The position numbers and the translations under genes are program-made. Below the pieces are notes generated by a model. It worked only from the letters and a program-made list of their open reading frames with translations, was not told the origin of the DNA and did not search any database. Shown in pieces: positions 5,801 through 48,580 of a DNA stretch of 64,000 nt (positions are counted from its first letter, which is position 1; each line of letters starts with the position of its first letter). The DNA is from Clostridia bacterium. Lineage in GTDB: Bacteria > Bacillota > Clostridia > Acetivibrionales > DSM-2933. The stretch is from the NCBI GenBank assembly GCA_026416815.1, contig JAOAEJ010000072.1, positions 62,001 to 126,000 of the forward strand. The letters are read 5' to 3'.

Positions 5801-8800
5801 AGGCATACGCAAACCAGGATGTTCCCTTTGAAAAACTAGTGGAAGAGCTTAATGTAGAGCGTGATATGAGTCGCAATCCTCTGTTCCAGGTGCTCTTTAG
5901 CCTTCAAAATACTCCTACACCTGTTTCGGAGTTTGCCGGTATAAGTATTTCAAGCACTGATTTAGATATAGGTTGTGCGAGGTTTGATCTGGCCCTTGAT
6001 TTATGGGAGACAAAAGAAGGCCTTGCAGCTACTTTTGAATATAATACAGATTTGTTCCACTATGATACTATTTCAAGGATAGCAGGGCACTATACGGAAA
6101 TCCTTGAGGAAATCGCTTTAAGCCCTGAAAAAGAGATTAAAAGGCTTGATATTCTCACCGGGGCGGAGAGAAAGACCTTGTTGGAAGACTGGAACAACAC
6201 CGAGGCGGATTTTGGCGATGTTTTCAGTTGGGTAGAGTTATTTGAGAGCCAGGTAGAGAAGGCTCCTGACGCTGTAGCGGTTGTTGCAGGGAATAACCAA
6301 CTTACCTACAAGGAGTTAAACAGCCGTGCTAACCAATTGGCGCATTATCTGACATCTATAGGTGTAGATACCGAAACTATTGTTGGTGTGTACGTTGAAC
6401 GCTCGGTGGAAATGGTTGTTGGGCTGTTGGGAATCCATAAGGCAGGGGCAGCATACCTACCGATGGACCCTATATTCCCTAAAGACAGGCTGGCATACAT
6501 GGTGGAAGACGCAAATGTACCTGTAATCTTGACCGATAGAGGGATTGCAGGGACTCTGCCCGAGCACAATGCTCGCCTCGTCTACTTAGACGACAAGCAG
6601 GAGTTTGAAGGGTTAAGTGATATTAATCCAGAGAAAAAAGGTAATTCTAAGGATCTGGCTTACGTAATATATACATCCGGCTCTACCGGTAAGCCTAAAG
6701 GCGTACAGATTGAGCAGTTTGCATTGATTAACTTCCTTAAATCAATGGAGAGAGACACTGGGGTCGGTGAAAAGGATTCTTTATTGGCGGTGACTACGCT
6801 GTCCTTTGATATAGCAGGGCTGGAGTTATTTATGCCGCTTATAGCCGGTGCTAAAGTGGTATTGGCAAGCAGAGATGAGGCGATGGACGGAGAACTCCTC
6901 ATTGAAAAGATAAAAGAGTATAACGTGACTATAATGCAGGCTACACCGGCAACATGGAGACTATTGATTGAATCGGGCTGGGCAGGGACACCGGAACTGA
7001 CGGTACTTTGCGGCGGAGAGGCTTTGCCTCGGGACCTGGCAAACAGTTTGCTGGATAGGTGCGGATGCCTCTGGAATGTGTATGGTCCTACCGAGACTAC
7101 TATATGGTCTACAATGGCAAGGGTTGAGTCAAAGACCGGAGCGATTTCCATAGGTAAGCCGATAGCCAATACTCAGATTTATGTTCTTGATACATGCATG
7201 AATCCAGTACCTGTAGGTATTCCCGGGGAACTGTTCATTGGGGGAGATGGAGTTGCGAGAGGCTATTTGAACAGGCCTGAGTTGACTCAGGAGAAGTTTA
7301 TACCCGATCCTTTTTTACAAAAAGAGGGCGCCAGGCTTTACAGAACCGGGGACCTTGTTAAATTTACTCCCGATGGCAGCCTGGAGTTTGTAGGGCGTAT
7401 AGACCATCAAGTAAAAATCCGCGGCTTCCGTATAGAGCTCGGTGAAATTGAGACTATACTTACCGACAACCCTGCAGTACATCAGAGTGTAGTGGTAGCA
7501 AGAGAAATAATAGCGGGAGAAATGTCTCTCGTGGCATATATAATACCGGAGTCAGGGCATGATAGCGGAGCATTGACCGCAGAGAAGCTTCGTGCTTATT
7601 TAAAGGGCAAGCTGCCTGATTATATGGTTCCATCAGCTTTTGTGACTCTCGAAGCTTTCCCTATGACACCTAACGGCAAAATCGACCGTAAGGCACTGCC
7701 GATGCCTGAAGCTTTAAGGCCTAAGCTTGAAGCCAATTATATGGCTCCTGAAAATGAAATTGAAAAGAGCCTTACCGCTATATGGCAGGAGGTTTTAAAG
7801 CTGAGCAGGGTTGGAGTTAACGACAGTTTCTTCGATCTTGGAGGGCATTCACTGCTGTTGGCACAGGTTCGCAGCAAGATAATGAAGGTGTTGAAAAAGG
7901 ATGTATCCATAATGGACCTTTTCAAGTACCCCACAATAAACACCCTGGCGAAGTTCTTGCAGCATGACGGCAAGCTTGAAGTGCAAGGCACTGCTGACAG
8001 CGCAAGGACAATAAAAAACAGGAGTGAGAGCTCGGATATAGCTGTAATAGGCTTGAGCGGGCGTTTCCCTGGTGCAAAAAATGTAGAGGAATTCTGGCAG
8101 AATCTATGCAGCGGTGTAAACTCTATAACCCGTCTGAGCGATGAAGAAATAATAGCAGAAGGGGTAGACCCGGAACTGTTGAAGAACCCCGAGTATGTTA
8201 AGGCATGGGGAGCTTTGGATGGAGTTGATAAATTTGATGCTAAGTTCTTTGGGTATAACCCGAGGGAAGCAGAAATCCTAGACCCACAGCAGCGTATTTT
8301 CCTTGAGGAAGCTTGGAAGGCTCTTGAAAACTCCGGCTATGACTCGGAGAAGTTTGGAAAAGCTGTAGGAGTATTTGCCAGCGTTGGCATGAACGCCTAT
8401 GTGCAAAACCTGTCCGGTGGAGACAAGGACGGGTTGGCAAGCAGCTATCAGATAATGATAAGCAATGATAAAGACTTCCTGGCAACAAGGGTAGCATACA
8501 AGATGAATCTGGAAGGTCCTGCAATCACTGTTCAGACAGCATGTTCATCATCACTGGTAGCAGTCCATCTTGCATGTCAGAGCCTGTTAAATGGTGAATG
8601 TAATATAGCTATTGCGGGCGGTGTAAGTGTAAGGCTGCCTCAGAAAACCGGGTACCTGTATCAAGAAGGGATGATACTTTCACCCGATGGCCACTGCAGA
8701 GCCTTTGATGCAAGCTCCAAGGGTACTGTAGGGGGAAACGGTGCAGGCGTAGTGGTGCTGAAGCGTCTTGAAGATGCAATTGCTGACGGCGATGAAATAA

Positions 8801-11800
8801 GCGCTGTTATCAAAGGTACAGGTATTAATAACGATGGTTCGTTGAAGGTAGGTTATACCGCTCCAAGAATTGACGGGCAGGCTGGAGCAATCTCCGAGGC
8901 CATGGCTAAAGCGGATATAAACCCTGAAACAATAACATATATAGAAGCTCACGGAACCGGAACACCTCTGGGAGACCCTATTGAAATTGAGGCTTTAAAG
9001 CAGGTGTTTACTAGAAAGACCGATAAAAAAGGCTTCTGTGCAGTTGGTTCTGTAAAGACAAACGTAGGACATCTTGATGCAGCAGCAGGAATAACCGGGT
9101 TGATAAAAACCGTGTTATCTCTCAAGAATAAGATGATACCTCCAAGCTTGAATTATGAAAAGCCAAATCCAAAGATAGACTTTGAGAACAGTCCGTTCTT
9201 TGTAAACACAAAGCTGACTGAATGGAGAAGCAGTGCCGGTCCTTTGAGAGCGGGATTAAGCTCTTTCGGTATCGGAGGAACCAATGCCCATGCAGTACTG
9301 GAGGAGGCTCCTGCATTGAATAAAGAGGATACTGGAAAAGAAAGCTGTCTGATGATATTCTCGGCCAAAACAGAAACTGCGCTGGATGCCATGACAGCAA
9401 ACTTTGTGGACTTCTTGAAAAAGAATGTGAATGTGAACATGGCGGATGTTGCATATACCCTCCAAATGGGCAGGAAAGAGTTTGAGTACCGCAGGTACCT
9501 GGTATGTACATCCAGAGAGGACGCTATAGAAGCTCTTGAAAGCATCAATGCTGAGCCAAAGCGTGTATTCAGCGGAATGGTAGAACAAGCAGCGGGTATG
9601 CAAGTTGATGAAAATAGTTTGAAGACAATCTCTCCTGAAGAACTCGGAAAGCTTTGGCTGTCGGGTACAAGGATAGACTGGAGCAAACTGTATGAAGGAC
9701 AGCAGAGAAGGCGTGTTGCACTGCCTAGCTATCCATTTGAAGGACAGTCCTTCTGGGTAAGCAAGCGCAAGGAAAAGGTAGTTGAAAAGGATGAAGCTGC
9801 AAAAAGACAGGATGTTTCCGAGTGGTTCTACAGTCCGGTATGGAAGCAGTCCACGCAGGATGTATGCTTTACACCAGACTTAGTTGAAAGCGGCCCAGTA
9901 GTGCTGGTACTGGCTAAAGCAGGAGATTTTACCGGTAAACTGGTAAGACGTATGGCTGAGTTCAACATAGATGTGATTACAGCAACCGGCGGCAGCGAGT
10001 ATAAAAAAGCGGATAATAATACTTATATATTTAATCCGGATAACAATGAGGATTACGACAAACTAATTCAGGAGCTTGCCGGAATGGGCAAAAAGCCTGG
10101 AAAGGTAGTAAGTCTGTTGGGTGTTGGTGATAACAATGCGGACACAGACAGGCAGTTCTACAGTTTGCTTTATCTTACTCAAGCATTAGGCAAGCAGGCA
10201 TGGAACACGCCGATACATATTAAGGTACTGACAAACAACTCCTATAGGATATTCGGAGAGACGGCTTTAGCTCCTGAGAAGGCACTTATCCAGGGACCTA
10301 TCAGGGTTATACCTAGGGAATACCCGAATATCAAGTGCAACGGCATAGACTTTACCATACCTGAGCCGGGAAGTGAAATTGAGACAGAAATTGTAGACCA
10401 GCTTATAGCTGAGATATATACCGAAACAGAGGAACCTGCGATTGCTTATCGCGGTGTAGAACGTTGGATACAGGATTTTGAAAAGGTAAAACTGGAAAGC
10501 AAGAACGCCCCAGCAGTACCGCTTAAGAATGGAGGGGTTTACCTCATAACCGGAGGAATGGGTGGAATCGGACTTGTACTGGCAGGGTACCTGGCAAAAG
10601 GAAACCAGGTGAAGCTGGCATTGGTCAGCCGCTCGGGATTACCGGAGAGGGAGCAGTGGGACGAGCTTTTGGTGAGCCGTAGTGCTAACCGTAAGACTCT
10701 GCAGATAATTAAGAAGTTAAAGTCCTTTGAGGAACTTGGAGCACAAATTCTTATCTGCAAGGGGGATGTAACTAATCCTGAAGATATGATTAAGGTAAGG
10801 GATCAGGTGGAGCAGAGCTTTGGTAAGGTTGACGGTATTATACATGCAGCGGGAGTTCCTGGTGGAGGTATGATACAGCTCAAGAAAAAAGAGGCTTCAC
10901 AAGATGTTCTTGCTCCTAAGGTTAAGGGTACTATTGCTTTGCATGAAGCGTTTAAGGACAGCAAGCTGGACTTCTTTATCTTGTGTTCTTCGTTAAACGC
11001 CATTACCGGAGGTTTTGGACAGATAGACTACAGCTCGGCAAATGCATTCCTTGATGCCTTTGCTCAGAAATATGATTCCCGCCGCGGAACACGATGTGTC
11101 TCCATCAACTGGGATAGATGGCCCGGCGTGGGGATGGCTGTAGAGCCGGGACGCCAGGGGGAGGCTCAGGAAGAGGTTCATCCGCTGTTAGGAAAACGCG
11201 TGACTGATACACCGGAAAAGATGGTCTACTTGTCAGAGTTAAATCCAGAGAAGGATTGGGCGTTGTCAGAACACCTTGTACTGGGGGTTCCAACCATTGC
11301 GGGGACAACCTATCTCGAAATGGCAAGGGCTGCTATGGCGGATATCGCAGGCTCTGCACCGGTAGAAATAACCGACGTACTGTTCCTTACACCATTGGCA
11401 GTTAAGAATGGGGAGAAGCGTGATGTGTTCACTATTCTTGATAAGGACGGTGAGGGCTATAGGTTCCGCATAGTGAGCAGACTGCGTACAGAAGGAGAAG
11501 GAAAATCCGGCTGGCAGGAGCATTCCCGTGGGAAAGTTGCTGTTTCGAAGGTAGAGCCGGGTAAGGAATTCGACCTGCTCCAACTTGCAGCGACTTGCAA
11601 TGAAAGAGTTATAGATATGTCAAGGCCTGAAGACAAACCGAAAGAGGAGTTCATAAGCTTCGGAGGAAGATGGAGATCATTGAAGAAATTCGGTATGAGG
11701 GGCAGCGAGGCATTGGTAGAAGTGGAACTTGGCAGTGAGTTTGCTTCTGACCTTGCAGAATATAAGCTCCATCCATCTACCCTTGACGTAGCTACCGGCT

Positions 11801-12678
11801 CGGTTAGGCTGGCAAACGGAGGAAACTATCTGCCGTTTTCCTATGCGAGGCTTATTATAAAAGGATATCTGACTCAGAAGGTATATGCTCATATAAGGTA
11901 TAAAAATGGTTATAACTCTGATGTAATAACTGTTGATATAGATATTATAGGTGATAACGGAAGTCACCTTGCGGAGATAAAGGACTTCTCTATGAGGCTG
12001 GTAAGTGAAGCAGCAGCTGCGGATATAAAGGTGAGAACATCGGGAGAGCAGGGACAAGCTGAATTCGCAGGACTTGACAAGCTTTATGCAGATGCGACGG
12101 GCAAGAAGGGCATAAGTGCATTAAGTGAGGGAATTGCTCCTGATGAAGGCATGGAAGCTTTCAAACGCATACTGCAGGGATGCTTTAAGCCTCAGGTTGT
12201 TGTTTCGACTAAGGATATAAAAGTAGCGGTGCAACAGGCTCAATACATAAATCAGCCGGGTATAGGCGGTTCCTTGGATGATGGGGACCAGAACAAAACA
12301 CTACACCCAAGGCCGGATCTTAAGAGCGAATATGTAGCACCCAAGAATGAGGCTGAGAGAAAAATCTCGGATATATGGCAAAGGCTTTTAGGTATAGACA
12401 AAGTGGGAATACATGATGAGTTCTTTGAATTAGGAGGAGACTCGCTGTTGTTGGTACAAATGCACTCTAAGTTAAAGGAGAACTTTGAAACCGAAATAGC
12501 AGCGGTTGACCTTTATAAATACAACACAGTGGCTGCACTTGCAAAATACTTAAGCAGCGACACCGAAGAGAAGCAGCCTGTATTTGAGGATGTAAACAAG
12601 CGTGCCAATAGGCAGATTGAAATGATGAAGCAAAGAAAACAACAAATGATGCAAAGAAGAGGAGTGATTAAGAAGTGA
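2830..12678 (+). CDS. Hybrid NRPS/PKS: FAAL-ACP-C-A(Gly)-PCP-KS-KR(DH)-ACP
   Basis: 3282 aa, the starting protein of the line. Domains: fatty acyl-AMP ligase 1-565 (FSSGSTGDPK at 170-179; NWMPLTHDMGLIG); ACP with Ser614; condensation domain about 672-1110 (HHIIFDG near 803); adenylation about 1130-1640, whose selectivity residues read by eye are D-I-L-Q-L-G-V-I-W-K, one change from a glycine code; PCP with Ser1674; ketosynthase about 1735-2165 with Cys1905, His2041, His2081; no AT; ketoreductase from about 2330; dehydratase about 2785-3060 with His2815 and Asp2986; ACP with Ser3205. The KR C-terminal segment (GIAPDEG at 3101-3107, then PQVVVST) lies after the DH, so the DH appears inserted into the KR. 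The DH motif HxxxGxxxxP has Ala2824 instead of Pro. The FAAL-ACP-C-A(Gly)-PCP-KS start resembles PksJ/BaeJ of bacillaene. AAGGGG precedes the ATG. Confidence 0.92.
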   Translation: MTAHETLTDLIVSRKEETLRGITFILDESEDRFVSYSDLYYTALGHLYHLQAAGFKPGDEVIFQIEDNNNFVFFFWACVLGGMIPVPVTAGANDEHKLKLFKIWEVLNNPRIITSREFIDKLDSFAAKSSMSELVDDIRKSTVYVEEVAGTGNYGEIYKPKPEDIAFIQFSSGSTGDPKGVIITHQNVLTNLNAVIKWTNIGPNDAGLNWMPLTHDMGLIGTHIKALLAGINQYSMQTQLFIRRPTLWIEKASKYKVTILYSPNFGYKHFLKFVQPDTIRGWDLSNVRLIFNGAEPISSELCNEFLSRMEQYKLKRNAMYPVFGLAEGTIAVTFPHPGEDFSIYRLDRDFLGIGEVIKEVSADSKNAVTFVDVGYPIYNCYMRICDEKNNDLGENKVGYIQIKGGNVTSGYYNNKGATEQTITSDGWLNTGDLGFMRNGRLVITGRAKDIIFMAGQNYYSHDIERVAEAVEGIELGKVAAVGAFNENKKCDELILFVLYKPKSVDKFLPIVSSLKRIINQQMGIEVSEVIPVRSIPKTTSGKTQRYKLRESYINGEFSEVKNEIHSLLDENFISREIDLPQNEIEEKLLGLWCDVLGASKVGTRDNFFELGGDSLKATQLISRIRDEFNTQLDQMELFENADIVSLAVALGKADRKGVQIQPIIEKAAAASDRLPLSFSQQRLWFLDRLNGQSAQYNLYTALQLKGSLNIELLLKSFNEVMKRHEVLRASFIEDDGQPVQVIHPGMTIDIPLVDMTDIAEEERKKRVLELAKEEASQPFTLEKAPLICGTLYRIKEEEYILVLVAHHIIFDGWSFGVLLKELAFYYEALSSNKGEVLPELEIQYADFAHWQVERIKGGLLKEQLDYWKGQLGGKLTVLDLPLDKQRPAIQTYNGAKLTGIIPRAQVEELQRLARKEGVTLFMVLLSAFKALLHRYTGQEDVIVGSPIANRNRREVEGLIGFFTNNVVLRTGFSGGASFQELLNQVKKVTLEAYANQDVPFEKLVEELNVERDMSRNPLFQVLFSLQNTPTPVSEFAGISISSTDLDIGCARFDLALDLWETKEGLAATFEYNTDLFHYDTISRIAGHYTEILEEIALSPEKEIKRLDILTGAERKTLLEDWNNTEADFGDVFSWVELFESQVEKAPDAVAVVAGNNQLTYKELNSRANQLAHYLTSIGVDTETIVGVYVERSVEMVVGLLGIHKAGAAYLPMDPIFPKDRLAYMVEDANVPVILTDRGIAGTLPEHNARLVYLDDKQEFEGLSDINPEKKGNSKDLAYVIYTSGSTGKPKGVQIEQFALINFLKSMERDTGVGEKDSLLAVTTLSFDIAGLELFMPLIAGAKVVLASRDEAMDGELLIEKIKEYNVTIMQATPATWRLLIESGWAGTPELTVLCGGEALPRDLANSLLDRCGCLWNVYGPTETTIWSTMARVESKTGAISIGKPIANTQIYVLDTCMNPVPVGIPGELFIGGDGVARGYLNRPELTQEKFIPDPFLQKEGARLYRTGDLVKFTPDGSLEFVGRIDHQVKIRGFRIELGEIETILTDNPAVHQSVVVAREIIAGEMSLVAYIIPESGHDSGALTAEKLRAYLKGKLPDYMVPSAFVTLEAFPMTPNGKIDRKALPMPEALRPKLEANYMAPENEIEKSLTAIWQEVLKLSRVGVNDSFFDLGGHSLLLAQVRSKIMKVLKKDVSIMDLFKYPTINTLAKFLQHDGKLEVQGTADSARTIKNRSESSDIAVIGLSGRFPGAKNVEEFWQNLCSGVNSITRLSDEEIIAEGVDPELLKNPEYVKAWGALDGVDKFDAKFFGYNPREAEILDPQQRIFLEEAWKALENSGYDSEKFGKAVGVFASVGMNAYVQNLSGGDKDGLASSYQIMISNDKDFLATRVAYKMNLEGPAITVQTACSSSLVAVHLACQSLLNGECNIAIAGGVSVRLPQKTGYLYQEGMILSPDGHCRAFDASSKGTVGGNGAGVVVLKRLEDAIADGDEISAVIKGTGINNDGSLKVGYTAPRIDGQAGAISEAMAKADINPETITYIEAHGTGTPLGDPIEIEALKQVFTRKTDKKGFCAVGSVKTNVGHLDAAAGITGLIKTVLSLKNKMIPPSLNYEKPNPKIDFENSPFFVNTKLTEWRSSAGPLRAGLSSFGIGGTNAHAVLEEAPALNKEDTGKESCLMIFSAKTETALDAMTANFVDFLKKNVNVNMADVAYTLQMGRKEFEYRRYLVCTSREDAIEALESINAEPKRVFSGMVEQAAGMQVDENSLKTISPEELGKLWLSGTRIDWSKLYEGQQRRRVALPSYPFEGQSFWVSKRKEKVVEKDEAAKRQDVSEWFYSPVWKQSTQDVCFTPDLVESGPVVLVLAKAGDFTGKLVRRMAEFNIDVITATGGSEYKKADNNTYIFNPDNNEDYDKLIQELAGMGKKPGKVVSLLGVGDNNADTDRQFYSLLYLTQALGKQAWNTPIHIKVLTNNSYRIFGETALAPEKALIQGPIRVIPREYPNIKCNGIDFTIPEPGSEIETEIVDQLIAEIYTETEEPAIAYRGVERWIQDFEKVKLESKNAPAVPLKNGGVYLITGGMGGIGLVLAGYLAKGNQVKLALVSRSGLPEREQWDELLVSRSANRKTLQIIKKLKSFEELGAQILICKGDVTNPEDMIKVRDQVEQSFGKVDGIIHAAGVPGGGMIQLKKKEASQDVLAPKVKGTIALHEAFKDSKLDFFILCSSLNAITGGFGQIDYSSANAFLDAFAQKYDSRRGTRCVSINWDRWPGVGMAVEPGRQGEAQEEVHPLLGKRVTDTPEKMVYLSELNPEKDWALSEHLVLGVPTIAGTTYLEMARAAMADIAGSAPVEITDVLFLTPLAVKNGEKRDVFTILDKDGEGYRFRIVSRLRTEGEGKSGWQEHSRGKVAVSKVEPGKEFDLLQLAATCNERVIDMSRPEDKPKEEFISFGGRWRSLKKFGMRGSEALVEVELGSEFASDLAEYKLHPSTLDVATGSVRLANGGNYLPFSYARLIIKGYLTQKVYAHIRYKNGYNSDVITVDIDIIGDNGSHLAEIKDFSMRLVSEAAAADIKVRTSGEQGQAEFAGLDKLYADATGKKGISALSEGIAPDEGMEAFKRILQGCFKPQVVVSTKDIKVAVQQAQYINQPGIGGSLDDGDQNKTLHPRPDLKSEYVAPKNEAERKISDIWQRLLGIDKVGIHDEFFELGGDSLLLVQMHSKLKENFETEIAAVDLYKYNTVAALAKYLSSDTEEKQPVFEDVNKRANRQIEMMKQRKQQMMQRRGVIKK

Positions 12679-15455
12679 GTAACTTTGAAGAAAGCAACTC
12701 CATGGGAGCCGTAGCTATTATAAGCATGAACGGGCGCTTCCCCGGAGCAAAAAATATTGAGGAGTTCTGGCAAAATCTTTACAACGGTGTGGAGTCGGTA
12801 AAATTCTTTACCCGTGAACAGTTGATTGAGCAGGGCATAGACGAATACCTTCTGGATAACCCAAAGTTTGTAGCGGCCGACGCTATATTGGATGATATGG
12901 ACAAATTTGATGCAGGGTTTTTCGATTACTCTGCAAGGGATGCGGAAATCATGGACCCGCAGCACCGTATGTTTCTTGAGTGTGCGTGGGAGGCTATGGA
13001 GAGCGCAGGGTACAATTCAGACCTATATGACGGCAAAGTTGCCGTCTATGCCGGGTCTGCATTAAGCGGCTATATGATAAGGAATCTCTATTCCAATCCA
13101 GGATTAGTTGAAAATGTAGGTACTTTTAAAATCATGATTGCTAACTCTCAGGACTTCCTTTCAACCAAGGTGTCTTATAAAATGAACCTGACAGGGCCGA
13201 GTGTAAATGTAAATACCCTCTGTTCCTCTTCCTTGGTTGCAGTGGATATGGCATGCAAGAATCTCTTAAGCTATGGATGTGATTTAGCTATAGCCGGAGG
13301 TGTAAGCTTCCAGATTTCAAGGAATGAGTCCTTCTTCTATCAGGAAGGTGGTATAGGCTCATCCGATGGGCACTGCCGTGCTTACGATTCTAAGGCAAAT
13401 GGGACAACAAGCGGAAGCGGACTTGCCCTGGTTGTATTAAAAAGGCTTGAAGACGCGATAGCTGATGGGGATTACATTCATGGAGCTATAATAGGTTCCG
13501 CAGTCAATAACGACGGAGCCTCCAAAAACAGCTTTACCGCTCCAAATGCTGACGGTCAGGCGGAATGTATTGCCGAAGCAATAGCGATGTCCGGTGTAAA
13601 CCCTGAAACCATAACCTATATTGAAGGGCACGGCACAGGCACAAACCTCGGAGACCCTATAGAAATTTCAGGTCTCACAAAGGCTTTCCGCTCCTATACC
13701 GACAAGAAGCAGTTTTGTGCTGTGGGATCGGTTAAGACCAACATAGGCCACCTTGTTACTGCCGGGGGCGTAGCGAGTTTGATTAAGACTGTTTTGTCTA
13801 TGCAAAACAAAATGCTGCCTCCAAGCTTAAACTTTGAAGAGCCTAATCCGAAGATTGATTTTATGAATACTCCGTTTTACGTTAATAATAGATTGTCCAA
13901 ATGGGAGCCGGACGGTTTTCCGATGAGAGCTGGCGTAAGCTCCTTCGGTATCGGCGGTACCAATGCCCACGTAATTGTTGAAGAGGCCCCTGAAATGGAA
14001 CCATCGGGCGAATCCAACAGGCCAAAGCAGCTTGTTGTCATGTCTGCAAAGACATCAACTGCCCTTGATAAAATGACTTCCAACATGATTGAATACATAA
14101 GAAAAAATCCTGAAGCTGATCTGGCAGACATTGCATTTACACTGCACGTAGGGCGCAGAAGCTTCAATCACCGTCGTATGGTTGTATGCAGCGATGTGAG
14201 TGAGTTGGCGGCTAAGCTGGAAGCAGGGGAAGCTCACACACTGTTCCAGAAGCCAAAGGAACAACCTACTGTGTTTGTATTCTCAAGTGAAGAGAATATG
14301 TATAAAAATATGGGACTGGAGATTTACCAGTCAGAGCCGGCTTTTGCAGAGTATGTAGACCAGTGCGCGGATATACTTAAATCCTTGATTAGCCTTGACA
14401 TCCGTCAGGTATTGTATCCTGAGCAGTCAAATGAGGCTTGGGCGGAGCAGCAGCTTAAGCAATACAATATTGCAAGGGCGGCTGCATTCGTTACACAATA
14501 TGCTCTGGCAAAGCTATGGATGGAATGGGAAGTTTCACCTGAGTTCATGGTCGGTGAAGGTGCAGGGGAATATGTAGCTGCGTGTCTGTCTGGAGTAATG
14601 TCGCTGGAAGATGCCCTTATGCTGGTATCTGCAAAGGATGAGATACTACCTCAGAAGGCTGCAGCGGTAAGCTTTAATGCTGTTGAGATTCCATTCATCT
14701 CATGCTTTACAGGGACATGGATCAGCGATTCTGATGCGGGAAGTTCCGACTACTGGGCACGCAGGCAGCGCCAAGGCGTACGTTTCGCTGAAGGCCTGCA
14801 GGAAGTACTGAAGGATGCAGATCAGATATTCGTAGAAATAGGTTATGGGAAAAAGTTAAGCAGTGAAATTGTTAAACTCGGGAGACAAGATGTAAATTAC
14901 ACAATAGTTAGTACAATGACTGATTCAGAAACTTTACTGCTCAGTGCAGGACAGTTCTGGATGGCGGGAGGTAGAATCAATTGGTTCAAATTCTACGCTG
15001 CCGAGAAGCGTCATAGAATTCCGCTTCCAACCTATCCTTTTGAGCGTCAGAGCTATTGGATAGAGCCGGGTAATCGTGGGGCTGGTGTGGCAGAAGGTGC
15101 TGATGGAAAGCTGGGACTCAAAAAGAGACCAAGACCTGAGATGGAGATACCTTATATTGCGCCAAGAAATGAGACGGAAGAAGCAATCGCCACTGTATGG
15201 CAGAACATATTAGGTTTTGACCGTATAGGAATCCACGATGACTTTTTTGAGCTTGGAGGGCACTCGCTGCTGGCTGCTGCCGTTGCTGCAGAATTGAGCA
15301 AGGCACTCCAAATACAGGTGCCTATCCGCAACCTGTTTGAGCTTTCTACAATTGAGAAGGTTGCTGAAATGATTGAAACATACCGCTGGGCTGCGCAGAG
15401 CATGGATGAAGTTGCTGCTGTTGCTGAAGAAGATTTGGAAGGCGGGACTATATAA
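12675..15455 (+). CDS. PKS module: KS - vestigial AT - PCP
   Basis: 926 aa. GTG start overlapping the previous stop by four bases, with GAGGAG upstream, so the two are translationally coupled. KS at about 10-440 keeps Cys183, His319 and His359, although the nucleophile motif is NTLCSSS rather than DTACSSS. Residues about 530-780 align by eye with a cis-acyltransferase (PTVFVFSSEEN; YVAACLSGVMSLEDAL; PFISCFTGTWISD; DYWARRQRQGVRF) but the GHSxGE active site has become GEGAGE (627-632), and the roughly 120-residue small subdomain with the second catalytic His is missing. This AT cannot work. A post-AT linker (YPFERQSYW) and a PCP with Ser864 follow. There is no reducing domain, so a beta-keto intermediate is expected. 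The C-terminus ends in an acidic tail with hydrophobic end (EEDLEGGTI), suited to docking with the next protein. Confidence 0.9.
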   Translation: MSNFEESNSMGAVAIISMNGRFPGAKNIEEFWQNLYNGVESVKFFTREQLIEQGIDEYLLDNPKFVAADAILDDMDKFDAGFFDYSARDAEIMDPQHRMFLECAWEAMESAGYNSDLYDGKVAVYAGSALSGYMIRNLYSNPGLVENVGTFKIMIANSQDFLSTKVSYKMNLTGPSVNVNTLCSSSLVAVDMACKNLLSYGCDLAIAGGVSFQISRNESFFYQEGGIGSSDGHCRAYDSKANGTTSGSGLALVVLKRLEDAIADGDYIHGAIIGSAVNNDGASKNSFTAPNADGQAECIAEAIAMSGVNPETITYIEGHGTGTNLGDPIEISGLTKAFRSYTDKKQFCAVGSVKTNIGHLVTAGGVASLIKTVLSMQNKMLPPSLNFEEPNPKIDFMNTPFYVNNRLSKWEPDGFPMRAGVSSFGIGGTNAHVIVEEAPEMEPSGESNRPKQLVVMSAKTSTALDKMTSNMIEYIRKNPEADLADIAFTLHVGRRSFNHRRMVVCSDVSELAAKLEAGEAHTLFQKPKEQPTVFVFSSEENMYKNMGLEIYQSEPAFAEYVDQCADILKSLISLDIRQVLYPEQSNEAWAEQQLKQYNIARAAAFVTQYALAKLWMEWEVSPEFMVGEGAGEYVAACLSGVMSLEDALMLVSAKDEILPQKAAAVSFNAVEIPFISCFTGTWISDSDAGSSDYWARRQRQGVRFAEGLQEVLKDADQIFVEIGYGKKLSSEIVKLGRQDVNYTIVSTMTDSETLLLSAGQFWMAGGRINWFKFYAAEKRHRIPLPTYPFERQSYWIEPGNRGAGVAEGADGKLGLKKRPRPEMEIPYIAPRNETEEAIATVWQNILGFDRIGIHDDFFELGGHSLLAAAVAAELSKALQIQVPIRNLFELSTIEKVAEMIETYRWAAQSMDEVAAVAEEDLEGGTI

Positions 15456-15515: not shown

Positions 15516-18500
15516 ATGTCAGCAGTTACATTTCTATCCCAACTACGTAAGCTGGGTGTAAAGCTTTGGCTTGAAGAGGGTGAATTACGCTTTCAAGCAC
15601 CTAAGGGAGTGATGACTAAAGAGATTATTGCGGAACTTTCCCAAAGGAAAAATGAAATTATATCATTCCTGCGTCAGGTAAGTATGGGGGCAAAAGTAAG
15701 CCAAGACCCTATAATACCGATATCAAGGGAAGCTGGCAGTGGACTGCCTCTTTCCTACTCTCAGCAGTCAATGTGGTTTTATGACCAGCTTATTAAGGGT
15801 AACCCGGCTTTCAATATATCCAGTGCAGTAAAGATAGTGGGGCATCTGGATATAGCCGCTATTAAGAAATCACTTAATAAACTCCTTATACGTCACGAAT
15901 CACTCAGAACGACATTCAAAAACGTTGATGGGGTCCCAATGCAAATTATAAGTAATCCGGCGGAAGTCGAACTGCCCGAGATAAACTTAAGTCATTTAGC
16001 GGAAGAAAAACTTGATATAGCATTGAAAAAGTTGTTGAGGGAAGAATCTCGAAAAAGTTTTAATTTGGAAAGAGGGCCTTTATTCCGTTTCTGTCTTTAC
16101 ATAACCGGAGAAAATGAATATGTGCTTTCAATGACCATACATCACATTATATGTGATGCGTGGTCAAATGGAATTTTCATTGGGGAACTTTTTAAATTAT
16201 ATGGAGCAGATGTAGAAGGACGGACAATAGACCTGCCGCAACTTTCAGTACAGTTTGCGGATTATTCCGCCTGGGAGAGAAACCGCTTAAAAGGAGATTT
16301 ACTTGAAGAGATGGTAGGTTACTGGAGGAAACAGCTCGCAAATCCTACTACGCTTCATCTTCCTATCGATAGGCCTCATTCCAAAAACCAGTCATATGAA
16401 GGTGGAATGGAGCAAATCCATATTCCGGGAGAGTTAAGCGAGAAGCTTAAGGCATTCTGTCTGCGGGAAGGCACAACTTTATTTATGGTGGTTCTTGCTG
16501 CGCTGCAGACTCTTTTATATAGATATTCCGGTCAGGAAGACATATTTACCGGCACGGTTGTGGCAAATCGCAACAGGAAAGAGATAGAGAATGTAACGGG
16601 CTTTTTCATGAACACTTTGGTTTTACGCTCCAATTTTGAAGGAAACCCTAGCTTTCTTGAAGTACTGCGCCAGGTAAAACAAACAACACTTGATGCATAT
16701 ACATACCAGGAGCTGCCTTTTGACAAGCTTCTGGAAGAACTGAAGCCTGAAAGGCAGGGAAACCGGACTCCGTTATTTCAGGTAATGTTTATTCTGCAGA
16801 GCGCACCAAAAGCTGACTTTAAGCTGCCTGGAGCAGAACTGCAGCAAATAGACTTTGATGCAGGACTGTCACCATTTGAGTTAAGATTGCAGCTTACTGA
16901 AATGGAAGATGGGCTAAAAGGTGCATTTGATTACAGCTTGGCACTTTTTGATCCTGATACCATAAGGCGTATGTCTGCCAACTTGATAAGCATACTTGAG
17001 ATTATTGTACAAGAGCCGGATAAAAGGGTAGCTGAGCTGCCGTGTATAGATGAAGCGGAAATGCGGGAGCTGGAGGAAAAACGAAGACGGAACAATAAAA
17101 TTCAAGAGGTGTTGAAGTTAGCCGTAGCAGCTACGTTTACATCCGAACCGATACAACCTTATATAAGCTGGTGGTGCAGGCAGTTCGGCATAGAAACAGA
17201 AGTACACTTCGCACCATACAACCAGGTGTTTCAGGAATTGTTGGACGAGAAAAGCCTTATATCCTCAAATAAGGGTGCAAACATATTGCTTGTGCGTTTT
17301 GAAGACTGGATAAGGGATGACAGGTCTTCAGAGGATGAACAAATAAGAAAGATTGACAGCAGCTTTAATGACTTGGTGAGTATGTTGAAGAGTAAGATAA
17401 AGAAAATACCGTACTTCATCGGTGTGTTTCCCGTTTCTACCCATTTGCAGATAAGTGATGGGGTTAGGGAGTACATTGAGAAGAAGAATGAGGACTGGAA
17501 AAACGTGCTGGAGGGGATGGGCAACGTTTATGCAATAGACTTCAGGGAGCTTGCAAACTTGTATAACATCTATGAGGAGTTTGACAGCCTGAAGGATAGA
17601 GAAGGTCATATGCCTTTTACCGACGAATATTATGCTGCATTAGGTACCGCTGCTGCGAGAAAGATATGTGCTTGGCAAAAGCAGCACTTTAAGGTGATAG
17701 TTCTGGATTGTGACAATACCCTATGGAAGGGTGTATGCGGGGAAGATGGGGCTCAAGGCGTTAAGATTGAGGGACCATATAGAGAGCTACAGGAGTTTAT
17801 ATTAGAACGCAATAAGGAAGGTATGCTGCTGGCCTTATGCAGTAAAAATATCGAGGCAGATGTGTGGGAAGTGTTTGAAAAGAACTCTGCAATGGTATTG
17901 AAAAAAGAGCACTTTATAGGGCACAGAATCAACTGGGAGCCTAAATCTGCCAACATAAAAGAACTGGCTAAGGAACTGAATCTGGGCCTTGATAGCTTTA
18001 TATTTATAGATGACAATGTAGCCGAGTGCGCAGAAGTAATGGCAAACAGCCCGGAAGTCTTAACACTGCAGCTTCCGAACGACGAGTCGCAGGTATCTGC
18101 ATATCTTGGACACGTATGGGCGTTTGATAAGTTAAAGGTTACTGAGGAAGACGCCATGAGGACAAAAATGTACATGGCAGAAAAAATGCGTCAATCAGCT
18201 CAGGAGAGCGGCCCGTCACTAGAGAGCTTCATTAAAGGTCTGGGACTCAAGATGAGCATGAACCTTGTAGAAGATGACCAGTTTGCAAGGGTGGCCCAGC
18301 TTACACAGAGGACAAACCAGTTCAACCTAAGTACTATCAGGCGGACAGAGGAAGATATAAAAGAGTTGGTCGGCATGCCGGGTACAAAATGTTATGCAGT
18401 AGAGGTAAGCGATAGGTTTGGAGATTATGGGCTTGTAGGTGTGGTGATAACCAAGCAGGTACCAAATAAATTGATTATAGATACATTTCTGTTAAGCTGC

Positions 18501-19271
18501 AGAGTTTTGGGCAGGGGAGTAGATGATGCGATACTTGGCGGCCTAAGGAAATTTTGTACCGAGAATGGCATACAAATGCTGGAGGCAGACTTCTATCCGA
18601 CTGAAAAAAATATGCCTTTTATCAAGTTTATCGAAAGAACAGGATGGAACAAGGTGGAGGAAACCGATAGGTACATAAAATATCACTTAAGTATTGAGGC
18701 TATACCATCCGCCATAGACTACATAGAATGCCATTACAATTCCAGGATTGAAGGGCAGGATAAGGGCTTAACAGAAGAAAAGCAAATTCCTGTGCTCCAA
18801 CACACAGCTACTAACCAAAAGGTTGAGAATGGGCATGTAGATAAGGAGAACACATGGGAAGTAAAGCTAGTTAATGAGGAAGGCCTCATACATAGAAGTT
18901 ATTTATTGCCGCTGCAAAACAGTAGGGGACAGCTGTTGTTAAAGCTGCCTGTAAATGAGGGGACAGGCGGAAATGTTTCAAGGGCGGAGTACTTAGCACC
19001 AAGAAATGACATAGAAGAAAAACTTGTTGAGATATGGCAAAGGATATTAGGAATAGAAAGAATAGGGGTTAATGATAACTTCTTTGCCCTAGGGGGTCAG
19101 TCTTTGCTGGCAATCACCTTAATATCAGAGGCTGCGAGAGTATTACACAAGGATATAACTTTGCAAGACCTTTTTGAAAACCCTACAGTTGCACAATTGG
19201 CGGAAAATCTCAATGTAGATACCCAGGATGATACAGAATTCGGTGATGATTACGAAGAGGGATTATTGTAA
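15516..19271 (+). CDS. NRPS-like module: docking - C - FkbH - ACP
   Basis: 1251 aa. Residues 1-57 look like a TubC-type beta-hairpin docking domain (LRKLGVKLWLEEGELRFQAPKG). The condensation domain (about 75-520) has His209-His210 and Asp214, in the form HHIICDA with Ala for the usual Gly. In place of an adenylation domain lies a full FkbH-like unit: its N-terminal SGNH-like half (about 540-720, FAPYNQVFQELL) and its HAD half with DCDNT at 731-735, CSKN, and FIDDN, ending near 1075. FkbH proteins dephosphorylate 1,3-bisphosphoglycerate and load a glyceryl group on a carrier protein. An ACP with Ser1196 follows. The C domain would then join the upstream acyl chain to the glyceryl oxygen, giving an ester (inference); a comparable C-FkbH arrangement is known, as I recall, from vioprolide biosynthesis. 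The acidic C-terminus (DDYEEGLL) may dock with the next protein. AAAGGAGG precedes the ATG. Confidence 0.9.
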   Translation: MSAVTFLSQLRKLGVKLWLEEGELRFQAPKGVMTKEIIAELSQRKNEIISFLRQVSMGAKVSQDPIIPISREAGSGLPLSYSQQSMWFYDQLIKGNPAFNISSAVKIVGHLDIAAIKKSLNKLLIRHESLRTTFKNVDGVPMQIISNPAEVELPEINLSHLAEEKLDIALKKLLREESRKSFNLERGPLFRFCLYITGENEYVLSMTIHHIICDAWSNGIFIGELFKLYGADVEGRTIDLPQLSVQFADYSAWERNRLKGDLLEEMVGYWRKQLANPTTLHLPIDRPHSKNQSYEGGMEQIHIPGELSEKLKAFCLREGTTLFMVVLAALQTLLYRYSGQEDIFTGTVVANRNRKEIENVTGFFMNTLVLRSNFEGNPSFLEVLRQVKQTTLDAYTYQELPFDKLLEELKPERQGNRTPLFQVMFILQSAPKADFKLPGAELQQIDFDAGLSPFELRLQLTEMEDGLKGAFDYSLALFDPDTIRRMSANLISILEIIVQEPDKRVAELPCIDEAEMRELEEKRRRNNKIQEVLKLAVAATFTSEPIQPYISWWCRQFGIETEVHFAPYNQVFQELLDEKSLISSNKGANILLVRFEDWIRDDRSSEDEQIRKIDSSFNDLVSMLKSKIKKIPYFIGVFPVSTHLQISDGVREYIEKKNEDWKNVLEGMGNVYAIDFRELANLYNIYEEFDSLKDREGHMPFTDEYYAALGTAAARKICAWQKQHFKVIVLDCDNTLWKGVCGEDGAQGVKIEGPYRELQEFILERNKEGMLLALCSKNIEADVWEVFEKNSAMVLKKEHFIGHRINWEPKSANIKELAKELNLGLDSFIFIDDNVAECAEVMANSPEVLTLQLPNDESQVSAYLGHVWAFDKLKVTEEDAMRTKMYMAEKMRQSAQESGPSLESFIKGLGLKMSMNLVEDDQFARVAQLTQRTNQFNLSTIRRTEEDIKELVGMPGTKCYAVEVSDRFGDYGLVGVVITKQVPNKLIIDTFLLSCRVLGRGVDDAILGGLRKFCTENGIQMLEADFYPTEKNMPFIKFIERTGWNKVEETDRYIKYHLSIEAIPSAIDYIECHYNSRIEGQDKGLTEEKQIPVLQHTATNQKVENGHVDKENTWEVKLVNEEGLIHRSYLLPLQNSRGQLLLKLPVNEGTGGNVSRAEYLAPRNDIEEKLVEIWQRILGIERIGVNDNFFALGGQSLLAITLISEAARVLHKDITLQDLFENPTVAQLAENLNVDTQDDTEFGDDYEEGLL

Positions 19272-19315: not shown

Positions 19316-22300
19316 ATGGTGGAAAAGACCACAAACGGAGATCATAATCATTCGATAGCTGATTTGGTTTCTGATATTGAAAGTAAAAAAATAAAGCTGT
19401 GGGTTGACGGTGAATTTTTGCGCTACAAAGCTCCCAAGGGAGTTGTCACCAAGGAAATACTACAATGCATCGGGGATAGGAAAGAAGAGATTATCAAATA
19501 TTTGAGTGCAGAGTCTTCCGCAGGAATTTTTTATGAGCCGATTCAACGGGTAGATGAGAAAGAATTCTATCCTATGTCAACAGCACAAAAAAGAATGTTT
19601 ATTTTAAACCAAATGGACAATGAAAGCACTGCATATAACCAGACTCAAGTATTGAAAGTAACAGGAGCAGTAGATAAAGAACGGGTTGAATGGGTAATAA
19701 ACCATATCATTGAAAGACATGAAATATTAAGATCATCTTTTGAAATGATTGATGGTGAGCCTGCCCAAATAGTAAATAAGTCGGTAAACTTTAAAATAGA
19801 TTTCATTGAATGTGAAGAGGCTCAGGTTGAAAATGAGATAAAGAGGTTTATAAGACCTTTTGATTTAAGCAAAGCCCCCCTCATACGGGTAACATTGGTA
19901 AAGGTATCGGATAACAATCATATAGTACTCTTTGATATGGACCACTTAATATCCGATGGCATATCCATGGCAATATTGATACGTGAAATTTCGGAATTGT
20001 ATGAAGGCCGGGAATTAAGCCCATTAAAAATACAGTATAAAGATTTCTCATACTGGCAGAAGCAAATGCTAAACACTGGTATAGTTAAAAAACAGGAAGA
20101 ATACTGGTTAAATGTATTTTCTGGGTCAATACCTGCAATCAGTATGCCTACCGATTATCCCCGCCCACCCGTAAGGAGCTTTGAAGGGGATCGGATAAAC
20201 GTTGTATTGGATGAAGAATTTACTGTAAGATTAAAATCCCTGGCCGACAAAATGGGAGCTACAACATATATGGTATTGCTGGCAGCCTATAATATAATGC
20301 TTCATAAGTATACAGGCCAGGAGGATATAGTTGTTGGGACACCCGTAGGGGGAAGAAGGCATTCCGATTTGCACAGCTTGATAGGGATGTTTGTAAATAC
20401 GATTGCTATGAGAAACTTCCCAGAAGGCAGCAAGACCTTTGAGGAATTCGTGCAGGAAGTGAAAAAAAGCACGTTAAAAGCCTTTGATAATCAGGATTAT
20501 CAATTTGAGGAACTGGTAGATAAATTGAATATCGAAAGGGATACCAGTAGAAACCCAATATTTGACACTATGTTTGTACTACAAAACATGGGGATACCTG
20601 AGATAGAAATTAGTGGTTTAAAATTTAAGCCCTATGAATTTGCGAATAGAATGTCCAAGTTTGACATTACCCTTGAAGCGATAGAAGAAGGCAGTGGTAC
20701 TATTAGGCTCAACCTTGAGTACTGTACTAAGCTGTTTAAAGCTGAGACAGCCAAAAGAATGCTGCTGCACTACACAAATATATTAAAAGAGATGGTAATG
20801 AATCCTTATAGCAGGTTGTGCGACATCAATATGCTGTCTGATGAGGAAGAAAGGCAGATACTGCTTGAGTTCAACGATACCAAGGCTGAATACCCGGCAG
20901 AAAAGACCCTTTACCGTATGCTGGAGGAGCAGGCTGAACGGACGCCTGACAGGGTAGCAGCTGTATTTGAAGGCAGGGAGCTGACCTATGGTGAACTGAA
21001 TGCCAGAGCGAATCAACTTGCAAGAAAGCTTAGGAATATGGGAGTGAGAGCCGACAGCATAGTGGCGGTAATAGTTAAGCGTTCTTTGGAGATGACGATA
21101 GGGATAATGGCTATTCTCAAGGCTGGAGGCGCATACCTCCCTATAGACCCCGATTATCCCGAAGATAGGATAGGGTATATGCTGGAGGACAGCGGAGCTC
21201 GTGTACTTCTTACACAGACCCGTTATATATCAAACTTTGAAGCCAATGAAAGTGGGGCTATAGTAGTAGACCTTGATGACAGCAGCCTATATACAGGTAA
21301 TGACAGCAATCTGGAGCCTATAAACGATTCCAGAAATCTTGCTTATGTAATATATACATCTGGTTCTACAGGAAAGCCTAAAGGTGCTATGATTGAGCAC
21401 TATTCGGTAATTAATAGGATAAACTGGATGCAGAAAATGTATCCTATTGGAGCAAACGACGTTATACTGCAAAAAACACCTTTTACCTTTGACGTATCGG
21501 TATGGGAGTTGTTCTGGTGGTCGTTTGTGGGTGCTAAGGTTTGCTTCCTCGTACCGGGAGGAGAAAAGGATCCTAAAACAATAGTAAGGGCTATTGAAAG
21601 TAACAACATAACTACGATGCACTTTGTACCCTCAATGCTTAATGTATTCTTGGAATACCTGGAAGGGGACAGCACTGATATTGATAGGCTTTCTGGCCTC
21701 AGACAAGTATTTGCAAGTGGAGAGGCACTGAATTTGCAGCAGGTGGAGAGGTTTAACAGCCTACTGTATGGAAAATATGGGACAAAGCTGCACAATCTGT
21801 ACGGACCTACTGAGGCAACGGTAGATGTATCCTACTTTGATTGTTCTACAGGGGAAAAGCTTGAAGTGGTACCTATAGGCAAGCCTATAGATAATATACA
21901 GCTTTATGTAGTAAATAAATACAATAAGCTGCAGCCGATAGGAATAGCCGGAGAACTTTGTATAGCCGGTGATGGGTTGGCAAGAGGGTATCTCAACAGA
22001 CCGGAACTTACAGCTGAAAAGTTTGTGCCCAACCCGTTTACTTACGGTCAAAGAATGTACCGGACAGGAGACCTTGTAAGGTGGATGCCCGACGGCAATA
22101 TAGAATACCTTGGAAGGATAGACCATCAGGTAAAAATAAGAGGTTATAGAATAGAGCTTGGCGAGATAGAGGCAGAAATTCTGAAGTACAATGCTGTAAG
22201 GGAGACAGTGGTGGTTGCAAGACAGGCTTCAGACGGCAGCAAGTACCTGTGCGCTTATCTGGTAACTGATGAAGAAATAACTTCGGGTGAATTAAGAGAG

Positions 22301-44973: not shown

Positions 44974-45080
44974 TGTTTTTTGTCAAAAAAGGTTGTGGAT
45001 TTTCGTAGGATGTATATGGTAAAATGGGAGAGTGATGTACAAAATAGGATTTAATGGAAAGGTTTTGGGTGAGGTTAATA

Positions 45081-47887: not shown

Positions 47888-48580
47888 ATGGAAATATATG
47901 CAGTAAAGGTTACAGGTAGAATTGAGTCATGGGTGTTTGATAAGCTTCTCTCCTATTTGCCCCAAGAAAGAATAAACAAAATTAACAGGTTTTTGCGCAG
48001 GGAAGATGCCCAACGGGCTTTAATGGGGGATATTCTGGCAAGGACTGCTATTTGCAGAGGACTTAATATACGAAACAGTGAAATTCTTTTAGCTTCAAAT
48101 GATTATGGAAAACCTTTTTTAAAAAGTATTGATAACTTTTACTTCAATGTCTCCCATGCAGGTGAATGGGTAGTATGTGCTGCAGGCGATGCGCGGCTAG
48201 GCATAGACGTAGAGGAAATAAAGCCTATTGATTTCGACATAGCTGAAAGATTTTTCTCGAGAGAGGAATGCAGTGATCTCTTTATGAGGAGTGAGGCTGA
48301 GAGGCTGGGTTACTTTTTCGATCTTTGGACTTTGAAGGAGAGCTATATAAAAGCAGAAGGTAGAGGGCTTTCCATACCGCTCGATTCGTTCACTTTTAAA
48401 ATACAAGGTGACGATATTAGAATCACTACAAATAATGAATTCAGAGATTGCTTCTTCAAGCAATATGATATAGGCCGGAATTACAAGCTTGCGGTGTGTT
48501 CTACCGACAGGGGATTCCCTGAGGATATAAGAATAAAAAGCTATATGGTGCTTTATGAAGAGTTTTTGCAGGTAGTTTAA
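47888..48580 (+). CDS. Sfp-type 4'-phosphopantetheinyl transferase
   Basis: 230 aa, normal length for the Sfp group. It shows FNVSHAGEWVVCA, the magnesium-binding LGIDVEEI, and the C-terminal WTLKESYIKAEGRGLS. The enzyme transfers phosphopantetheine from CoA to the serine of carrier domains; here the ten carrier domains embedded in the megasynthases plus the free ACP are the obvious substrates. The final helix region is complete. It has its own promoter, so it may be expressed apart from the megasynthase genes. The window does not show whether the host has another Sfp enzyme. Confidence 0.95.
   Translation: MEIYAVKVTGRIESWVFDKLLSYLPQERINKINRFLRREDAQRALMGDILARTAICRGLNIRNSEILLASNDYGKPFLKSIDNFYFNVSHAGEWVVCAAGDARLGIDVEEIKPIDFDIAERFFSREECSDLFMRSEAERLGYFFDLWTLKESYIKAEGRGLSIPLDSFTFKIQGDDIRITTNNEFRDCFFKQYDIGRNYKLAVCSTDRGFPEDIRIKSYMVLYEEFLQVV

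Follow-up and report, generated by a model that had tools for sequence, protein, structure and literature searches.

The window analysed here, a 64,000-nucleotide stretch of a Clostridia bacterium genome (assembly GCA_026416815.1, contig JAOAEJ010000072.1, positions 62,001 to 126,000 of the forward strand), carries an assembly line built of polyketide synthase (PKS) and nonribosomal peptide synthetase (NRPS) proteins. We focused on the protein encoded at 12675-15455, in which an acyltransferase (AT) domain lies between a ketosynthase (KS) and a carrier protein (PCP) domain. This AT is dead and shortened, the loss of residues being seen both in the sequence and in the predicted model. The initial annotation regarded it as a cis-AT module caught in transition to trans-AT supply; the truncated AT (tAT) looks to us more like a structural component that has been preserved than like a gene in the midst of decay. 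The features of the protein are as follows.

12675..15455, + strand: PKS protein with the order KS, linker, truncated AT core, post-AT linker, PCP; 926 aa, GTG start
12708..13994, + strand: KS domain; catalytic Cys183, His319 and His359 present
14028..14225, + strand: KS-AT linker domain (CurL-like_PKS_C / RhiE-like_linker)
14265..14654, + strand: AT large subdomain, N-terminal part, retained (Pfam PF00698 positions 1-117; predicted model)
14553..14570, + strand: former nucleophile elbow GHSxGE, now GEGAGE, starting at residue 627; the Ser position is Gly629
14643..14672, + strand: deletion junction; about 85-95 residues gone compared with the AT of ZmaA (ZmaA-AT), namely the small subdomain, lid loop and catalytic His
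14673..14924, + strand: AT large subdomain, C-terminal part, retained (ZmaA-AT alignment, relatives' alignment, model)
14925..15074, + strand: post-AT linker, ending in LPTYPFERQSYW
15024-15041, + strand: LPTYPF linker motif
15183..15374, + strand: PCP domain; Ser of LGGHS present

The AT core proper spans approximately 14265-14924. The initial annotation had it begin at 14200, which falls in the KS-AT linker, but the core is indeed there from about 14265 on. Its resemblance to cis-ATs is not due to chance, since Pfam Acyl_transf_1 scores 60.2 bits (cut-off 32.7), albeit over profile positions 1-117 of 319 only, and the nearest solved sequence, ZmaA-AT, is matched with E 8e-51. All four motifs singled out initially are in frame (PTVFVFSSEEN at residues 531-541, YVAACLSGVMSLEDAL at 633-648, PFISCFTGTWISD at 673-685 and DYWARRQRQGVRF at 692-704), and so is the domain as a whole, which runs without stops between the KS-AT and post-AT linkers. 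The ZmaA-AT alignment consists of two blocks with the small-subdomain stretch skipped: query position 148 corresponds to ZmaA 230 in the first block, and the second begins at ZmaA 302. According to the accessible part of its description, the small subdomain of ZmaA-AT comprises A226-I292, and next to it comes the lid loop, which carries the catalytic His (PMC4207774). The skipped stretch matches this segment plus the lid, so the deletion takes the small subdomain and little else. Thus, the replacement of GHSxGE by GEGAGE, with Gly629 at the Ser position, was found exactly as first stated, and the small subdomain with its His is cleanly missing in both the sequence and the model. The Gln of the GQGSQ motif is lost as well (the remnant reads FSSEEN). 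Both this Gln and the Arg that follows the elbow have known roles in ATs. Accordingly, the module does not have the integrated AT with Ser-His catalytic residues that defines a cis-AT module, Ser being Gly629 and the His region being deleted; judging by these residues it should, like an AT-less module, have no functional integrated AT. Neither Pfam nor the predicted model revealed a complete AT elsewhere in the remnant region.

The structural side of the argument comes from AlphaFold2 models. For residues 440-806 the input consisted of 44 aligned sequences (the window plus scan loci), with truncated and intact ATs mixed. The resulting model (mean predicted local distance difference test score, pLDDT, 90.8; predicted template modelling score, pTM, 0.90) has ZmaA-AT as its best match (VIA-align Z 42.4, root mean square deviation, rmsd, 1.7 Å, 341 of 367 residues aligned, chain of 436). 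In this model the region superposes as an AT core without the small subdomain, and the structure-based refutation test proposed with the initial annotation, a complete active site elsewhere in the region, did not refute it. In the second model, of residues 1-802 (31 sequences, mean pLDDT 88.9), the KS-AT arrangement is kept.

The truncation is widespread. When the remnant was used as a query against the genomes of 60 relatives, at least 14 of them had a near full-length match (32-58% identity, no internal stops), and there is no stop within the tAT matches of the window and these 14. In the 15-row alignment the deletion is common to all, and the elbow reads GxGxGE in all except L023 (genome G040). 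Eight weaker full-span matches were also read; each was truncated, with a spacing of 348-361 and without the FHS motif, and one of them represents a fifteenth genome, G053 (L151). At least 15 further genomes of the order, and other phyla as well, therefore share the truncation. A scan of named genomes with a tAT profile, from which the best 80 of 567 loci were taken (class counts are hence not natural frequencies), identified tATs in Brasilonema, Cyanomargarita, Nostoc, Aphanothece, Ardenticatenaceae, Myxococcus, Pyxidicoccus, Sorangium, Acetivibrio straminisolvens and two metagenome-assembled genomes, of Clostridiaceae and Anaerolineaceae. Altogether, the 37 truncated ATs that we read come from Clostridia, Cyanobacteria, Myxococcota and Chloroflexota.

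KS modules also fall into size classes. In 140 of them the spacing between the KS end and LPTYPF is 129-162 (12 modules), 305-372 (30) or 416-462 (84); since they were drawn from loci selected by their AT region, these numbers do not reflect frequencies. The classes accommodate 126 of the 140, the remaining 14 having no recognisable LPTYPF (11 of them also have no AT elbow). With a looser motif, KSs of the window's own genome gave spacings of 156-176, plus two (250 and 258) between the classes.

We compared 29 truncated ATs with a sample of 48 intact ones (L101, from the same genome as L113, was excluded from trees and tallies). The nucleophile position is occupied by Ser in all 48 intact ATs and by Gly in none, whereas 27 of the truncated ones have Gly, one (L029) has Ser and one (G040, with its aberrant elbow) has neither. 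The FHS His is present in 0/29 truncated and 48/48 intact ATs, the GQG Gln in 1/29 and 46/48, and the Arg after the elbow in 6/29 and 48/48; the last elbow Gly is retained in both groups (29/29 and 47/48). In the eight tATs read later the His is missing throughout, and the Ser position holds Gly (six) or Lys (two) and never Ser. Over all 37, His is missing in every case and Gly replaces Ser in 33. The Ser-to-Gly swap is thus common among tATs, though not universal. The sole tAT that keeps Ser, in the Brasilonema protein L029 8393-13630, reads GYSTGE (GYSFG in ZmaA), having lost the small subdomain and His; its sequence makes it a possible intermediate. As to the surroundings of the core, 12 of the 14 relatives (L110, L112-L117, L119-L123) have about 60-90 extra residues between the post-AT linker and PCP, an insert absent from the window, G003 (L118) and G040 (L124). 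In Acetivibrio straminisolvens (L113 / L101) the PKS genes of the cluster are broken into several overlapping frames, probably through sequencing errors or decay.

Selection on the remnant was measured as dN/dS (nonsynonymous over synonymous rates, Nei-Gojobori) in nine usable pairs among seven genomes of one genus, the pairs sharing sequences. The values were 0.14-0.23 for the tAT, 0.013-0.054 for KS, 0.11-0.36 for the KS-AT linker and 0-0.105 for PCP. In the one measurable genus the tAT is therefore under purifying selection, its constraint being about that of the linker and below that of the enzyme domains.

The other components of the assembly line are listed below (FAAL, fatty acyl-AMP ligase; ACP, acyl carrier protein; C, condensation; A, adenylation; KR, ketoreductase; DH, dehydratase).

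2830..12678, + strand: upstream protein FAAL-ACP-C-A-PCP-KS-KR-DH-PCP; KS module without AT, its KS grouping with intact KS-AT KSs
15516..19271, + strand: TubC-C-FkbH-PCP protein; FkbH domain in the usual place of the adenylation domain
19316..26437, + strand: NRPS protein with TubC, two A and two PCP; three condensation stretches by Pfam, two full C by BLAST
26449..27723, + strand: discrete AT of the FabD type, 424 aa; GHSLGE and SAPFHS intact; proposed malonyl supplier
27823..31728, + strand: KS-KR-ACP module without AT; KS among own-genome AT-less KSs
31733..36550, + strand: KS-DH-KR-ACP module without AT; KS among own-genome AT-less KSs
36555..41219, + strand: KS-DH-KR-PCP module without AT; KS among own-genome AT-less KSs

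The free AT at 26449 that the initial annotation pointed to is real: its motifs are intact and 26449-27723 scores 336.5 bits against TIGR00128 fabD (cut-off 260.9). A second intact discrete AT, 67% identical to it, lies just upstream of the window (G000:C57:59947-61221, L109 17947-19221). Both have a C-terminal extension of about 130 residues past the AT fold. The FkbH domain of 15516-19271 likewise scores above its curated cut-off (TIGR01686, 315.8 bits against 146.65); by its sequence, the C domain of this protein may attach a glyceryl-type unit. At the margins of the PKS genes, 1303-2604 encodes a predicted lipoprotein without a Pfam match, a 54% identical copy of which stands beside the PKS genes of G029 (L117). 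By eye it resembles C45/NAAA-type amide hydrolases, and we take it to be possibly a pro-drug acyl cleavage enzyme. An 893-residue protein without a Pfam match at E 1e-4 (45054-47735) lies between the PKS genes and a phosphopantetheinyl transferase at 47888. The genome (G000) is unusually rich in PKS genes, with 55 KS matches per 4.8 Mb, many of which lie in very long frames of contig C84.

Relatives preserve much of this arrangement. The clostridial line reads FAAL-ACP-C-A-PCP-KS-KR-DH-PCP and then KS-tAT-PCP, which is followed by a C-FkbH protein in the window, L119, L120, L122 and L123, by a C-A protein in L110, L112-L118 and L121 (behind the AT gene in L118) and by another protein in G040. 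A survey of 14 relatives, G053 (L151) not being one of them, showed that all but G040, hence 13, have a discrete AT like that of the window close to the tAT module. Identity over the AT part is 61-70%, and the distance stays within about 28 kb (about 27 kb away in G037, the next gene in G003, split into two frames in G056). Outside this line, the tAT loci L029, L030, L032 and L102 also contain a 3-hydroxyacyl-CoA dehydrogenase, a free carrier protein and FkbH, the first three of them an acyl-CoA dehydrogenase as well. Such a gene set is a known route to hydroxymalonyl- or methoxymalonyl-ACP. The discrete AT has its own KS-AT linker in L030 and L032 and carries an extra carrier domain in L029; L102 starts inside an AT, for which the whole-genome search returned a 509-residue frame. 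FkbH matches occur in 4/14 tAT loci and 3/66 others (Fisher p 0.016), and as the loci are non-independent and of unequal length, the tAT-FkbH association is suggestive only. We also considered FkbH-made hydroxymalonyl as the extender unit of the window module. It was set aside as less likely, since neither 3-hydroxyacyl-CoA nor acyl-CoA dehydrogenase was found among the window proteins scanned (frames 59027, 61334 and 62888 were outside the scan). With none of these dehydrogenases found and a discrete AT of the FabD type present, malonyl is to be expected in the window.

What kind of assembly line the tAT module descends from was addressed with a KS tree of 110 rows (quick search, SH-aLRT support only, 36 of 87 intact-AT modules sampled). 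The KSs of modules 1 and 2 of the window fall among those of intact KS-AT modules, in an 80-row set that includes 36 intact-AT rows (SH-aLRT 100), and the KSs of 27823, 31733 and 36555 lie on the other side of a fully supported branch, together with own-genome AT-less KSs. Against a cis grouping, two cis-AT reference KSs from the window's own genome landed on the AT-less side with long branches. Of the named KSs added, BGC11 KS3 joined the own-genome AT-less KSs, and OzmN KS2 and OzmQ KS1, which belong to a trans-AT line, fell on the window's side. The window KS is thus apart from the first set of trans-AT KSs and alongside the second. Given these cis references and the position of the Ozm KSs, the split reflects KS types and does not cleanly separate cis from trans. 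A KS group common to cis-AT and trans-AT lines is known in the literature. The phylogeny proposed with the initial annotation gave a grouping with intact KS-AT KSs, but not one exclusive to them. By these sequences the line looks like a hybrid, modules 1 and 2 having KSs of the intact KS-AT kind and the last three of the AT-less kind.

Origins of the truncation are harder to count. The tAT rows need nine changes on the KS tree, seven of them forced by starred branches. A single tAT origin was rejected by this tree (29 rows, lnL difference 488), although KS and AT histories may differ. On the AT-core tree (77 rows, with the same sample of 48 intact ATs), in which tAT branches are very long, starred branches force only two changes. 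We are thus unsure about the number, which may be anywhere from two to nine. If regain of the subdomain is implausible, the truncation would have arisen at least twice, perhaps more often, or have spread between modules by recombination.

The KS domains themselves are mostly well preserved. Of the first 29 tAT modules, to which that of the window belongs, all keep Cys, Lys and the second His, and 26 keep the first His; among the eight read later, two have a change in the first His and two in the second. The changes are His to Gln in L090 (8438-12013), L151 and the second tAT modules of L112 (11638-17880) and L113 (13160-17287), His to Phe in L144, and second His to Asn in L146 and L148. Judging by these residues, the KSs of 30 of the 37 modules, that of the window included, look able to condense, and seven may not; the altered His suggests that the latter are non-elongating modules.

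Based on these observations, we consider it reasonably probable, from sequence and model, that the tAT is a catalytically dead AT large-subdomain core, retained for structural reasons in a KS-PCP module that still works. With the small subdomain and its His gone and Ser turned into Gly, the module should not load itself; with the catalytic residues of KS and PCP kept, it should still add one unreduced malonyl unit. Malonyl would most likely be put on the PCP by the discrete AT at 26449, by the 67% identical copy upstream, or by both. The KS would accept the chain from the upstream PCP and extend it, and the beta-keto chain would be handed to the C domain of 15516-19271. Meanwhile the dead core would hold the KS-AT and post-AT linkers in the shape of a KS-AT didomain and hence maintain the carrier geometry. 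The geometry of nucleophile elbows is known to be strained, and Ser to Gly would fit relief of this strain after catalysis was lost.

Several observations weigh against this reading. In trans-AT lines, AT-less modules generally function with nothing more than a short linker, which means that the core is no absolute requirement. Nor is a discrete AT the supplier in every case: the G040 genome yielded no PKS-type discrete AT (three AT matches, all listed; apart from the intact AT of module 1, only a FabD-size protein and another PKS), and loci L031, L033, L034, L035, L036, L037, L041, L083 and L090 yielded no discrete AT at all when frames of less than 700 aa, without KS and away from locus ends were considered. 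Whole-genome absence is firm for G040 only; the genome of L041 has one AT elsewhere, in a 482-residue frame. A catalytic KS His is altered in 7/37 tAT modules. Five wider pairs of the 14, including those with the window, gave no tAT dN/dS because dS was saturated, and the AlphaFold input alignments held intact ATs, so that the AT fold may have been favoured.

The alternative that fares best is compatible with a scaffold role. It proposes that in cis-AT lines the intact AT of a neighbouring module loads the tAT module and that the clostridial line later swapped in a discrete AT. In G040 the AT of module 1 is intact and module 2 has the tAT; L031 (Ardenticatenaceae) has the same pair, and the KSs of both are sister to those of clostridial modules 1 (SH-aLRT 89) and 2 (98, starred). 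The tAT modules of L033, L083, L034 and L035 also adjoin intact KS-AT or AT-KR modules. However, the FabD-size AT present in G040 could do the supplying instead, and we view cross-loading as possible though rather doubtful. Whichever AT does the loading, truncation needs no discrete AT, since in G040 the tAT coexists with a neighbouring intact cis-AT and no PKS-type discrete AT was found. From G040, truncation probably preceded the discrete AT. Parsimony over these few taxa would plausibly place truncation of module 2 first, followed by the arrival of the discrete AT and the disappearance of the whole AT from module 1.

A different role, in which the core is a docking surface that recruits the discrete AT to its module, strikes us as unlikely. 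The discrete AT near the tAT module in 13/14 clostridial relatives and in the same locus in L029, L030, L032 and L102 (there cut by the locus end) is in keeping with it. For a Bacillus cluster, truncated ATs have been proposed as trans-AT binding sites, as far as the accessible part of that report goes (PMC5964695). On the other hand, docking does not agree with the lack of a discrete AT in G040 and, by the frame filter, in nine tAT loci, and the core-less modules of the window presumably use the same ATs.

It is also improbable that the core is a functionless relic on its way out. The tAT does evolve several times faster than KS, as the dN/dS ranges indicate, and identity between the window tAT and its counterparts in 14 relatives is 33-58%, compared with 77-80% for KS in the 12 having a full-length KS (61% in G040). 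Yet dN/dS is well under 1 wherever measurable, the tATs of the window and 14 relatives contain no stops, Gly at the Ser position in 33/37 together with the invariant last elbow Gly (29/29) is not a random outcome, and KS-LPTYPF spacings fall into separate classes for 126 of 140 modules. A non-elongating module, which would require no extender unit, is very improbable in the case of the window. A catalytic His is altered in the KSs of seven of the 37 tAT modules, but Cys and both His are retained in that of the window and 29 others, and the window PCP keeps its Ser.

Returning to the proposed scaffold, these results bear on how cis-AT assembly lines become trans-AT ones. The initial annotation was right in that the AT is dead, the KS groups with those of intact KS-AT modules and discrete ATs are at hand. 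The word "caught" is not supported, in view of the spread of the truncation over at least 15 genomes and other phyla, the purifying selection in one genus and the pairing in G040. It is the line as a whole that went from cis to trans, and what is left of the AT is a stable product of that change. Intact, core-only and AT-less modules stand next to each other in related lines and offer a testable order, with truncation coming before full loss and before the discrete AT. It is tempting to generalize, if only tentatively, that removal of the small subdomain and loss of the nucleophile, mostly Ser to Gly, are a recurrent selected end state. Such a non-catalytic AT scaffold would have evolved several times in unrelated phyla, could precede the discrete AT and would let a neighbouring AT or a dedicated discrete AT feed the module, in cyanobacteria and Anaerolineaceae with an ACP-bound extender from the FkbH cassette. 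For PKS engineering, the tAT module is a natural AT-dead module with the architecture kept: the small subdomain is out and Gly is in the elbow.

Partial ATs are already known, and a literature search that covered few subscription papers yielded little of relevance on truncated or inactive ATs and no report of a core-only AT that recurs across phyla. The closest solved AT by both sequence and structure, that of ZmaA from the zwittermicin pathway (PDB 4qbu), differs in being active, with Ser192, small subdomain and lid, and takes hydroxymalonyl-ACP according to the accessible part of its description (PMC4207774). In the pepstatin pathway, the PKS gene pepC is described as having a truncated AT domain in the part of the report available (PMC12081711); the likeness is by description only. 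The KS-AT proteins ClbI (PDB 8xju) and CurL (4mz0) share the order KS, linker, AT, linker with the window protein, and ClbI its downstream carrier domain as well, but their AT retains the small subdomain. The KS-tAT model matches ClbI with Z 58.7 and rmsd 3.1 over 754 residues, ClbI chain 6-878 pairing with model 11-797. OzmN KS2 is the top match of this model (Z 60.5, 564 residues aligned, 47% identity).

Like the window protein, OzmQ KS1 of oxazolomycin (PDB 4oqj; sequence E 2.3e-170) has a KS and, behind it, part of an AT that lacks the active site, and its KS lies on the same side of the tree; the model superposes on it with Z 58.5 and rmsd 3.0 over 664 residues. Its authors reportedly describe a partial AT. 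In OzmQ KS1, however, only the first AT stretch aligns and 81 residues separate the aligned blocks, compared with 184 in the window; from this shorter stretch, its AT core is much more eroded. ClbC and ClbK of colibactin (PDB 8xbl and 8cjh) likewise have a KS followed by a shortened AT region and are presumably served by a trans AT. Model residues 6-799 and 9-800 align to their chains 4-749 and 4-696, so by range they are about 50 and 100 residues shorter than the window protein and would have lost more of the core; the ClbK sequence matches the window query in the linker only. The window thus has what characterizes these proteins, namely a KS, retained linkers and a piece of AT devoid of its active site, but not the same extent of AT loss, since it keeps the whole large subdomain and OzmQ KS1 and ClbC are shorter. 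Ordered by the chain range that pairs with nearly the whole model, ClbI with its intact AT (6-878) is followed by the window (about 790), ClbC (4-749), OzmQ KS1 (15-705), ClbK (4-696) and OzmN KS2 (15-599, no space for an AT). By this measure the window protein is the least eroded partial AT among those compared, a less eroded variant of a known theme.

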